Shown piece after piece: positions 23,090 to 29,825 of a stretch of 37,772 nucleotides of DNA (position 1 is the stretch's first letter; each line of letters starts with the position of its first letter). The notes under the pieces are model-generated. The model did no database searches, was not told the DNA's origin, and worked only from the letters and a program-made list of their open reading frames with translations. The stretch is from positions 1-37,772 of IMG/VR virus record IMGVR_UViG_3300044733_001451, one strand, 5' to 3'. The position numbers and the translations under genes were made by a program. The stretch is from a virus.

Positions 23090-23096
23090 CCGACCC
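23076..23096. terminator. Convergent hairpin holding both stop codons
   Basis: GGGTCG (23076-23081) and CGACCC (23091-23096) form a perfect six-pair stem with a nine-base loop. The loop contains CTAG at 23086-23089, which is the TAG stop of the giant + strand gene and, read backwards, the TAG stop of the small - strand gene. There is no clear T-run on either side, so intrinsic termination is uncertain. The location between converging operons is where a bidirectional terminator is expected. Confidence 0.45.
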
Positions 23097-23286
23097 GCCA
23101 TACCCGCACTCCAAGACATCCATCCTTGGATGAGGCGTAAGCCTTCACCTTTACCTTGGCGATCTTGGAGCGCGTGTCCACAATGTAGATAAGCTCTGCT
23201 GGCTTGAGCGTAGGGATGAAAAAACTCTCCCCTATCTCCATCCCCTCAAAGGGGAAGATCCACTCCGGTTCAGTTAGCTGCTGCAT
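23086..23286 (-). CDS. Small conserved phage protein, function unknown
   Basis: A 66-residue protein with WIFPFEGMEIGESFFIPTLKP and a Lys-rich second half ending in GVRVWRVG. I recognise it as a small family at the end of replication operons in phages, without known function. The gene starts inside the last codons of the primase-helicase (17-base overlap), so it is probably translated by coupling. Its stop uses the palindromic CTAG shared with the giant gene. A second inverted repeat (tccaag / cttgga, 23110-23130) lies within its 3' part. Confidence 0.68.
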   Translation of the reverse strand: MQQLTEPEWIFPFEGMEIGESFFIPTLKPAELIYIVDTRSKIAKVKVKAYASSKDGCLGVRVWRVG

Positions 23287-27384: not shown

Positions 27385-27792
27385 CTAATCTGCCGAGGTT
27401 GATTTGCGAACCGTGACGCCATACTCGCGCATCACGCTAACACCGGGCGGCAACCCATCTGCCTCGTTTTCAGATATGTATTGCTTGAAGTTGCCCTGAT
27501 GAATTCTACGTTCCAATAAAGCCACCGCCTCGTTCTCCAGCACGAACTTGCCAAAGTTATCCCAGTCGGTGCAGTAAAACCGTTCGTTGAGCCTGCGGAT
27601 GACTGTGCCATGTGAAGTCTTGATACTGCTAGCACCCACGCCGTTGCAGACTTCGAGCATCGCCATCTCAAGCTTGTCCATGTCTTGCTTCAGCGCATTG
27701 TCCTTCTCATCGTACTCGTCTTTGAGCTTCGCCCGCTCGTTGCGGAGCGAGATGAATGCGCTTACTAACTCGTCCAAATTAACATCACTCAT
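27385..27792 (-). CDS. Conserved replication-operon protein, function unknown
   Basis: A 135-residue protein. Residues 1-55 form a charged coiled coil (SDVNLDELVSAFISLRNERA onward). The rest contains SIKTSHGTVIRRLNERFYCT, DWDNFGKFVLENEAVALLER and RIHQGNFKQYI, then GLPPGVSVMREYGVTVRK. I know the family from phages beside the SNF2-type helicase but not its function. The start is ATG 27792, eight bases into the helicase 3' end, with AGGAGA upstream, not the ATG at 27822 which lies deeper in the helicase. Coupled translation with the helicase is likely. Confidence 0.65.
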   Translation of the reverse strand: MSDVNLDELVSAFISLRNERAKLKDEYDEKDNALKQDMDKLEMAMLEVCNGVGASSIKTSHGTVIRRLNERFYCTDWDNFGKFVLENEAVALLERRIHQGNFKQYISENEADGLPPGVSVMREYGVTVRKSTSAD

Positions 27793-29386
27793 TGCTTTCC
27801 ATCTCCTGTTTGTATAGATCAACTAACTTCTGGTGATTATTCACCTTGCCCTGCAGCATCTGGTACATCTTTCGTTCGACTTCCGAACCCTGCAGGTGAA
27901 CAACCGTCATGTTGTTCTTTTGTCCAACACGATCAATACGAGCAATACATTGTAAGTACGTCTCGACCGACATCACGGGGGACCAAAACACCACCGTATC
28001 TGCCGCAGTCAAAGTAATACCGTGCGAGGCTGCTTGGGGCTGGATTACTAAAACTCTAGGCTTATCCGAGGTCTGGAACTTTTGAATGATGCTGGCGCGT
28101 TGCGTGGCGCTAACTGACCCCTGAATAATCTCGTTTGTAATTCCCTGCTTTTCCAAGTACTCCGATACCACCGTGATAGTGTGCGTGAAGGGAACAAATA
28201 CTACAACCTTATTTACGGTTTCGTCCAGTACCTCCGATAGCGCGTTTAAACGTGGAGAGATGTCGAATTCGACCACGTCACGACTGTCGGTGTATACAGC
28301 ACCGCCCGAGATCTGAAGCAGTTTGTTGAGGCTAGCCGCTGCGTTGACCGCGCTGACTTGTTCCCCAGCCGCCTCAATAAGCATCTGATTCTTGAGCTTT
28401 TTGTAGTAGACCTGCACCTGAGTTGTGAGCGGCACTTCGCGGGTCTGGTACGTTACGTCCGGCAGGTCAAGGCACTCTGCCTTCGTATAGCGAATAGCAG
28501 GCTGCAGGGCGTTGTACACATCCATTTGCGACGTGGGCTTCGGTATCCATTTAAATCGAGTCACCTGATACATGACTTTGTCGCGCCATGCGGTGGTGAA
28601 CTTCGGAACTCGGGATGGACTAATCAGTCGGGCCAAGCCAAACGCATCAACAGGAGACTGCGAGGCCGGTGTACCGGTCATCATCCAGAGTCGGGTCGAT
28701 GGCTTGATCAGTTTTGCCAACGTCTTCCAGCGTCGTGTCGAGGTGGACTTGTAAGCGTTAGCTTCATCGATGATGACTAGATCAAATCCAGCGGCAGCCA
28801 CTTCGTCCACCATGATGTTGACGCCGTCGTAATTGATGACCGTAAAGTCGTAGCCGCCACGGATAATTTTCTTGCGTTTGTCCTGTGACCCGTGTGCTAT
28901 GCCGCAGGTACGATGCATCGCTGTTTTGAATACGTCTGCCTGCCATGCCGAGTGCATGATCGACAGGGGACAAATGACTAGGACTTTCTTGACTAGCCCA
29001 AGATTCATCAGGTAGTCCGTAGCCCAGATCGCAGCAGAGGTCTTACCCGTACCGGCTTCGTTAAAGCAGAAAGCCCGGGGGCGCAGACTCAAGAATGAGG
29101 CTGTTATCTTCTGGTGCTCGAACGGTTTGAATATGCCCGGCCAGTTGTAGTCCCGCAGCATGGGTGACGGGATCTGCGGTATCTCCGGGTTCGGCTGGTA
29201 CTCATCCAGCATCATCGCCAGATCAGCCGCTTCGTCGTAGCCCCAGTTAATTAGCACATCGTGTGCCTCGGGGTGGATCTTGAGCGCGTGGCTTTTCTGA
29301 ATGTTCTGAAGGATCTGTGCCCCTACGATGGCAGGGACGGTCATTTGAATCGCTGTGTTGTCTACTATATTCATAACTGTATCCAT
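27785..29386 (-). CDS. SNF2-family DNA helicase/translocase
   Basis: A 533-residue ATP-driven DNA translocase of helicase superfamily 2. Motif I is NEAGTGKT (Walker A 111-116), motif II is DEAN (207-210), motif III is MTGTP (236-240), and motif VI is RIDRVGQ (483-489), characteristic of SNF2 proteins. The first 90 residues contain a family-specific region (HPEAHDVLINWGYDEAADLA). Such enzymes remodel forks or recombination intermediates and displace bound proteins. No nuclease domain is fused. The ATG at 29386 follows a hairpin whose 3' arm carries an AAGGGG that could be its ribosome site; Met5 is an alternative start. It opens the downstream replication group after a 157-base gap. Confidence 0.88.
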   Translation of the reverse strand: MDTVMNIVDNTAIQMTVPAIVGAQILQNIQKSHALKIHPEAHDVLINWGYDEAADLAMMLDEYQPNPEIPQIPSPMLRDYNWPGIFKPFEHQKITASFLSLRPRAFCFNEAGTGKTSAAIWATDYLMNLGLVKKVLVICPLSIMHSAWQADVFKTAMHRTCGIAHGSQDKRKKIIRGGYDFTVINYDGVNIMVDEVAAAGFDLVIIDEANAYKSTSTRRWKTLAKLIKPSTRLWMMTGTPASQSPVDAFGLARLISPSRVPKFTTAWRDKVMYQVTRFKWIPKPTSQMDVYNALQPAIRYTKAECLDLPDVTYQTREVPLTTQVQVYYKKLKNQMLIEAAGEQVSAVNAAASLNKLLQISGGAVYTDSRDVVEFDISPRLNALSEVLDETVNKVVVFVPFTHTITVVSEYLEKQGITNEIIQGSVSATQRASIIQKFQTSDKPRVLVIQPQAASHGITLTAADTVVFWSPVMSVETYLQCIARIDRVGQKNNMTVVHLQGSEVERKMYQMLQGKVNNHQKLVDLYKQEMESNE

Positions 29387-29390
29387 TACT

Positions 29391-29430
29391 AAAAGCCCCT
29401 TACGGGGGCCAGTCGGTTAGCACCCGGCCC
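29391..29430 (-). terminator. Attenuator-like alternative hairpins before the helicase start
   Basis: On the - strand, GCCCC-CGTAA-GGGGC followed by TTTT looks like a short intrinsic terminator ending five bases before the helicase ATG. An upstream stem, GGGCC (from 29430) with GGCCC (to 29406), uses the same GGCCC bases, so the two stems exclude each other. The terminator's 3' arm reads AAGGGG, spaced about nine bases from the ATG, so folding would also hide the ribosome site. It could control transcription, translation, or both. Confidence 0.45.
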
Positions 29431-29482
29431 GGAAAAGCAATAAAGCAGAGCCGTCACTAACAGGCATGGTTAAGCGTGTCAT
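29417..29482 (-). CDS. Possible 21-residue leader peptide
   Basis: An ATG-started ORF encoding MTRLTMPVSDGSALLLFRAGC. Its TAA lies in the loop of the GGGCC/GGCCC stem that competes with the terminator-like stem, the usual place for ribosome-coupled attenuation. It contains three consecutive Leu codons (TTA, TTG, CTT). No good ribosome site is seen for this ATG or for the internal ATG at 29467, so translation is doubtful. It may be accidental. Confidence 0.22.
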   Translation of the reverse strand: MTRLTMPVSDGSALLLFRAGC

Positions 29483-29543
29483 GTAACACTAGGACGGAAG
29501 TGGGTTAACGTCCCATTCCTCCACACTCATGCCTTGTGGGGAA

Positions 29544-29825
29544 TTACTTCATCGCCCCGCTGGACGTACGTTTAAACGAGCGGTTGCGACGGACAGATTG
29601 GATTGTGTACCCGTCTTTGTTCGTGCCGCCTTTCGACAGGGCTTTCTTGTGGGCAATGTCTTTGCCCTCCCGTCGATCTGCCTTGCCGTTACCGTTTAAA
29701 TCTTTCCCGTTTTTATCAACGGTGCGACGAGCGCGTTGACGCTCCATGCGATCTGCATGTTCTCCGCGAGCCTTCTGCTGCTGGTACTCTTTCTTGTACG
29801 GGCGTGATTTGTTGACGTATGGCAT
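29544..29825 (-). CDS. Small basic protein with degenerate HNH-like core
   Basis: A 93-residue, strongly basic protein (PYVNKSRPYKKEYQQQ, RMERQRARRTVD). The middle reads DLNGNGKADRREGKD, which resembles a calcium-binding EF-hand or dockerin loop. It is followed by IAHKKALSKGGTNKDGY, close to the H-x-x-P-L-S-K-G-G core of HNH nucleases but with Ala where the core Asp is usual and no zinc-binding Cys. I recognise the family as small phage proteins of unknown function. The start has a good GGAG eight bases upstream, and lies 110 bases inside the coiled-coil gene. Confidence 0.65.
   Translation of the reverse strand: MPYVNKSRPYKKEYQQQKARGEHADRMERQRARRTVDKNGKDLNGNGKADRREGKDIAHKKALSKGGTNKDGYTIQSVRRNRSFKRTSSGAMK

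Follow-up and report, generated by a model that had tools for sequence, protein, structure and literature searches.

A stretch of 37,772 bases from a virus record (the window) almost certainly encodes, on its minus strand, an RNA from a family of structured non-coding RNAs, about 80–155 nt long, for which Rfam has no model. Comparison of related sequences indicates, with equally high confidence, that the fixed core of this family has three parts, namely a hairpin (P1), a two-part helix (P4) and a pseudoknot in which the loop of P1 pairs with the strand preceding P4. A further hairpin (P5) usually follows the core. Sequence matches place the RNA in considerably more than 100 sequences of aquatic phages and in a small number of bacterial chromosomes. 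The chances appear about even that it acts in trans as a free small RNA through loops resembling the anti-Shine-Dalgarno sequence.

The element lies in the largest co-directional intergenic gap of the window (157 nt, 29387–29543). A sequence-only reading of this DNA had called it the only real gap and had considered a regulatory purpose likely. The 180-nt convergent junction at 23090–23269 is another candidate gap unless its 66-aa ORF is real. The gap before SNF2 does hold a functional RNA, and the 3' hairpin proposed there (P5 in the present structure) is real and kept in relatives. The following features were assigned:

29544–29825, minus strand: upstream gene, 93 aa, phrog_4590; its stop codon (29544–29546) abuts P1.
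29391–29543, minus strand: whole RNA; its 5' edge is P1 at the upstream stop codon, and its 3' edge is the U run that follows P5.
29516–29543, minus strand: P1 hairpin, 29543–29535 paired with 29525–29516, with a bulged A at 29520.
29526–29534, minus strand: P1 loop, AGGCATGAG.
29528–29533, minus strand: 5' strand of the pseudoknot, GGCATG, inside the P1 loop, pairing with 29468–29463.
29492–29513, minus strand: P2 hairpin, variable, 29513–29509 paired with 29496–29492.
29473–29490, minus strand: P3 hairpin of the window's subgroup, tentative, 29490–29486 paired with 29477–29473.
29463–29468, minus strand: 3' strand of the pseudoknot, CATGCC, pairing with 29533–29528.
29416–29461, minus strand: two-part P4 helix, P4a 29461–29456 paired with 29421–29416, P4b 29453–29449 paired with 29429–29425.
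29430–29448, minus strand: C/U-rich apical loop of P4, resembling the anti-Shine-Dalgarno sequence in most members, CUUUUCC in the window.
29395–29409, minus strand: P5 hairpin, GCCCC-CGUAA-GGGGC, then U4 at 29394–29391.
27785–29386, minus strand: SNF2-type DNA helicase gene (phrog_62, E 7e-107).

The window's SNF2 gene has two in-frame ATGs, at 29386 and 29374; the start of most relatives corresponds to the latter, which supports 29374 as the probable ancestral start. A phrog_13900 protein ('minor head protein') is encoded at 27385–27822 between replication genes, and its head annotation looks doubtful. DNA similarity searches of the window found no named phage near it, and tRNA and tmRNA searches gave nothing on the element. 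The folding energy of the gap stretch was ordinary (z = −0.89; 36 of 200 shuffles equally good). Thermodynamic folding on its own thus gave no support and yielded a misleading structure; since the energy was no better than chance, the stems by themselves are no evidence, and comparison was needed.

Homologues were collected in several ways. An IMG/VR search with the SNF2 protein returned at least 80 loci, and in many of these a conserved element stands immediately upstream of SNF2. The core pattern AGGCRYGAGUG ... AACCRYGYC, used as a DNA query, gave at least 120 matches in viral contigs and a single match among GTDB genomes, which lay in Methylophilales bacterium HTCC2181. Shortening the gap within the pattern added at least 113 further viral stretches, and P5 alone gave at least 120 matches. 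Some pattern matches arise by chance; four of them (L083, L165, L184 and L200) were put down to it, as were two weak hits in genomes (L236 and L237). The covariance model matches the window at 29412–29546 with 38.2 bits (E 2.7e-10).

Covariation supports the structure at several depths. In 30 diverse sequences aligned with MAFFT, standard pairs filled 90.3% of structure cells, compared with 34–43% when partners were slid by 1–3 columns (33–43% once the slid controls of the larger alignment below are included); 23 of the 28 pairs showed two-sided changes, and the covariation score was 0.586 versus 0.250 in shuffles. RNAalifold, given no structure, recovered P1 and P4a, with two-sided support for 13 of 13 pairs. 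Among 94 members, 90.5% of cells were paired and the score was 0.644 versus 0.227, in an alignment that was fitted to the model and leans towards it. Because the pattern query forces parts of the pseudoknot, the 20 members found by SNF2 homology alone were counted separately; their cells were paired at 98.6% in P4a, 95.7% in P4b, 80.5% in P1 and 99.2% in the pseudoknot. The P5-only scan revealed compensated pseudoknots outside the pattern, namely GGUACG/CGUACC, GACAUG/CAUGUC and the 7-bp GGCUAUG/CGUAGUC with an inserted pair, and a scripted check gave 6 of 6 pseudoknot pairs for several such exchanges. In 11 close relatives, the window's own structure, including the bulged A of P1, was paired in 91% of cells.

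The individual helices differ in constancy. P1 was paired in 98.0% of cells in the 11 close relatives, with two-sided changes at 3 of 9 pairs, and all 6 of its pairs covary in the wide set. The family pseudoknot joins GGCRYG of the P1 loop to a downstream CRYGYC and was paired in 99.8% of cells across 92 distinct sequences, with A-U/G-C and U-A/U-G/C-G exchanges. P4a and P4b were paired in 98.5% and 100% of cells in close relatives, with two-sided changes, and in 96.5% and 90.5% across the whole family. The main run of P2 was paired in 76% of cells with two-sided changes, and the hairpin is missing in the bacterial members L234 and L235 and in short-type phage loci; P3 was paired in 56–78% of cells with some two-sided changes. 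About a dozen unpaired bases of the core are invariant. P5 is present in most members, though not all, and its stem varies with compensation around a CGUAA loop that is fixed across homologues. A possible outer helix around P5 (ACU/AGU) was seen and is not claimed.

Further loci with P5 were also observed. L383, L387, L389, L409, L412 and L442 carry divergent possible relatives before P5, with the loop AGNGNGCGGUG or AGCGG.. and a matching pseudoknot and P4, which the R2 model did not match; L387 and L389 precede genes beginning MSD..TLDFE, possibly DNA polymerase. The P5 sequence CCGACTNNCCCCCGTAAGGGG occurs without the RNA core in L378, L382, L447, L090 and L187, and the gene after it in the first three resembles a capsid gene by eye. 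P5 may be a separate small RNA module.

A convincing match was found in 27 of 30 records examined whole, with one copy per phage; the two copies in contig G002 have identical scores near its two ends and probably reflect terminal redundancy. In several dozen loci, as in the window, P1 starts directly after the upstream stop codon. SNF2, judged by its N-terminal sequence, lies downstream in about four fifths of the 94 aligned members at near-constant spacing. Other downstream genes encode the phrog_13900 protein, directly after the RNA (L166, L097 and L115), DNA polymerase after gp2.5 (L132) and a VRR-NUC nuclease (L113), and in the L120/L187 group a terminase small subunit gene is about 150 nt from the RNA. 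Chromosomal copies occur in 4 of 31 genomes of the OM43 genus to which HTCC2181 belongs (HTCC2181 itself and three further Methylophilaceae), where they sit among ordinary chromosomal genes, and in 1 of 399 Burkholderiales genomes (L247); each of these isolated copies is followed by a terminator-like hairpin. No RNA was found at E 0.001 in 398 other genomes sampled across the phylum.

Several observations concern the surroundings of these loci. In two OM43 genomes (L243 in G045 and L244 in G048), a YqaJ-like nuclease gene follows the RNA in an ordinary chromosomal neighbourhood with argS and dsbA; a phage remnant or defence-related island is possible there. Among named phages, the closest SNF2 relatives (RHph_TM3_14A, Rollin, Effie and Xp15) have no gap before SNF2 and no RNA. 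AT-rich SNF2 relatives (L020, L024, L026, L028, L032 and L033) are also without the RNA; a short hairpin and a promoter-like site of the TTGACA type take its place upstream of SNF2. On the phage contig L084, a strong match to RF02932 (Betaproteobacteria-1 RNA; 2200–2316, 95.6 bits) lies about 480 nt downstream of the element, which hints at a betaproteobacterial host.

Promoter and terminator signals vary among members. Where upstream room exists, a sigma-70-type promoter scoring 10–11 of 12 was read from the sequence just before P1 in at least 12 loci. The window has no promoter for the RNA, and only UUUU follows its P5. In one group of SNF2 phages (L268, L277, L297 and L299), a terminator of −20 to −23 kcal/mol whose loop is C/U-rich comes after core and P5, and promoter-like sites (9–10 of 12) stand between this terminator and SNF2; the RNA in this group would be a unit separate from SNF2. 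Terminators precede the SNF2 ribosome site in L290, L340, L273 and L275, directly so in the first two. In this four-phage group and in L290 and L340, terminator stems vary and loops are C/U-rich (CCUCUCUC-like), as if the terminator loop might also be functional. Promoter and terminator are both clear in few members, and the window is not among them.

CUCC is present in 50 of 74 distinct P4 loops, compared with 13.5 expected in shuffles, and 40 of 88 loops match the 3' end of HTCC2181 16S rRNA over at least 6 nt, compared with 12.6 in shuffles. P4 loops thus show the exposed CUCC-type loop by which anti-Shine-Dalgarno small RNAs are recognised; in the window, the loop (CUUUUCC) matches this type weakly. 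The layout suggests a small RNA that may pair with Shine-Dalgarno sequences. The RNA would be transcribed from its own sigma-70-type promoter beginning at P1 or, as in the window, within an operon transcript, and would end at a downstream terminator or might be excised from a longer transcript. The pseudoknotted core would keep one or two C/U-rich, anti-Shine-Dalgarno-like loops exposed; through these the RNA could pair with phage or host mRNAs at their ribosome-binding sites and so lower target translation during infection. A free RNA is favoured over a leader because isolated copies have their own terminator-like hairpins, because the context is independent of any one gene, and because a strong terminator and then promoter-like sites precede SNF2 in the four-phage group. 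Against it stand the adjacency to SNF2 and near-constant spacing in about four fifths of aligned members, which are leader-like in cis, the lack in the window of a promoter and of any U run beyond the UUUU after P5, the weak anti-Shine-Dalgarno match of the window's P4 loop, and the terminator placement in L290 and L340, which also fits attenuation. In a bolder version, the pseudoknotted scaffold of this widespread phage RNA would display a copy of the 3' tail of 16S rRNA, which would act on Shine-Dalgarno sequences as a blocker or decoy and so redirect translation in the infected host; host chromosomes would have captured some copies of the RNA. This version appears unlikely.

The main rival is a cis-acting leader, a riboswitch or protein-binding element in which recognition of a ligand or protein by the core would govern termination or ribosome access, usually for SNF2. 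It owes this position to the near-constant SNF2 spacing and to the terminators before the SNF2 ribosome site in L290 and L340, like those in L273 and L275; the mostly co-directional placement, other neighbours such as DNA polymerase and nucleases, and the invariant unpaired core bases also fit. However, a terminator and a new promoter-like site part the RNA from SNF2 in L268, L297 and L299, isolated chromosomal and terminase-side copies exist, and many SNF2 relatives lack the RNA. In a weak test, the ribosome site downstream of the RNA paired no better with the P4 loop of its own phage than with P4 loops taken from others (−5.73 versus −5.49 kcal/mol). We regard a cis-acting leader as somewhat unlikely. 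An antiterminator of the HK022 put type, in which nascent RNA would bind RNA polymerase and allow read-through of downstream terminators, is quite improbable: the RNA starts at a promoter in several phages and heads replication genes with terminator-like hairpins behind it, yet it lies inside an operon in most phages, occurs once per genome and, in one group, is followed by a new promoter-like site after the terminator. In the pistol ribozyme, a hairpin loop pairs with the strand before the next stem, and this similar helix order and the sharp 5' edge at P1 would suit a self-cleaving or processing element that cuts the operon transcript. Such an element is very unlikely, as Rfam ribozymes gave no match even at loose thresholds and the alignment has no constant candidate cleavage site.

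The sequence-only reading had proposed that two stems, together with leader ORFs, form an attenuator or mask a ribosome site and thereby control SNF2; this model now appears extremely improbable. Its elements exist in the window: GGGCC (29430–29426) can pair with GGCCC (29410–29406) as stem 1, GCCCC (29409–29405) can pair with GGGGC (29399–29395) before TTTT as stem 2, which is P5, AAGGGG lies about 10 nt upstream of the ATG at 29386, and both ORFs are there, one of 21 codons with three consecutive Leu codons (29482–29417) and one of 13 codons (29530–29489). The proposed structure was incomplete, missing P1, the pseudoknot, P2/P3 and P4. Competition between the stems is unsupported, since stem 1 would occupy the 3' strand of the covarying P4b and destroy it, and since relatives break stem 1 without compensation: its five pairs are complete only in the window, L002, L004 and L142, falling to 1 of 5 in L007, L008 and L021 and to 2 of 5 in L012. 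Stems broken in this way are an outcome that the sequence-only reading had itself named as refuting its proposal. Leader translation fared no better, because by eye the 21-codon frame is gone in L007, L008, L021 and L142, and because the ORFs begin within pseudoknot strands, where the ATG of AACCAUGYC readily turns to GUG, CGUG or CGCG in wider homologues as part of the pseudoknot. Masking of AAGGGG does not generalise, as the ribosome site (AAGGA...) of most relatives lies downstream of the P5 hairpin and their start is at the codon matching 29374; within the window's own subgroup it is possible. Termination at P5 is likewise not general, TTT following within 8 nt in only 35 of 70 homologues, and control of SNF2 alone conflicts with an RNA that also precedes other genes or none.

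Few structured RNAs from environmental phages are known, and fewer still span unrelated phages while also occurring as single chromosomal genes in the possible bacterial hosts. One small RNA that combines a covarying pseudoknot with an anti-Shine-Dalgarno loop offers a directly testable case of infection control at the RNA level in abundant aquatic bacteria, and the RNA would give annotation another searchable family. Neither in the window nor in 27 other loci did the element match any Rfam 15 family, even in loose E-value searches; a CRISPR-repeat match at P5 (CCCCGUAAGGGG) was a mere shared 12-mer far below threshold. The RNA, its scaffold and its distribution were not found described in the open literature searched. 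As general kinds, structured RNAs carried by phages are already known, and so are small RNAs that have anti-Shine-Dalgarno loops. Ocean-VI, a marine candidate motif without an Rfam number, is a marine-only candidate RNA and may possibly be identical with the present one (PMC2864571). The manA and wcaG motifs of marine phages are structured RNA domains of aquatic phages and a few bacteria with function inferred from context, as here, but their neighbours are exopolysaccharide or metabolic genes, and neither gave an Rfam match to the present RNA (PMC2864571). The glutamine riboswitch of the OM43 phage Melnitz is a phage-borne riboswitch and resembles the present RNA in being compact, structured and carried by phages whose hosts are streamlined aquatic bacteria (PMC9004378). 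The present RNA differs from it in being unmatched by Rfam and in having no consistent metabolic gene downstream. The put RNA of phage HK022 is an RNA structure at the start of early transcripts, and some members of the present family similarly head early or replication transcripts. By description, however, the present RNA is set apart by its pseudoknot, its single copy per genome and its stand-alone terminated copies. Alphaproteobacterial small RNAs of the CCUCCUCCC type also have anti-Shine-Dalgarno loops; they and NfeR1 share with the present RNA the hairpin-exposed, C/U-rich CUCC loops and, in some members, an intrinsic terminator. NfeR1, from rhizobia, is an example of a bacterial small RNA with such loops (PMC10746234). 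Unlike both, the present RNA is unmatched by Rfam, occurs mainly in phages and carries its loop on a conserved pseudoknotted core.
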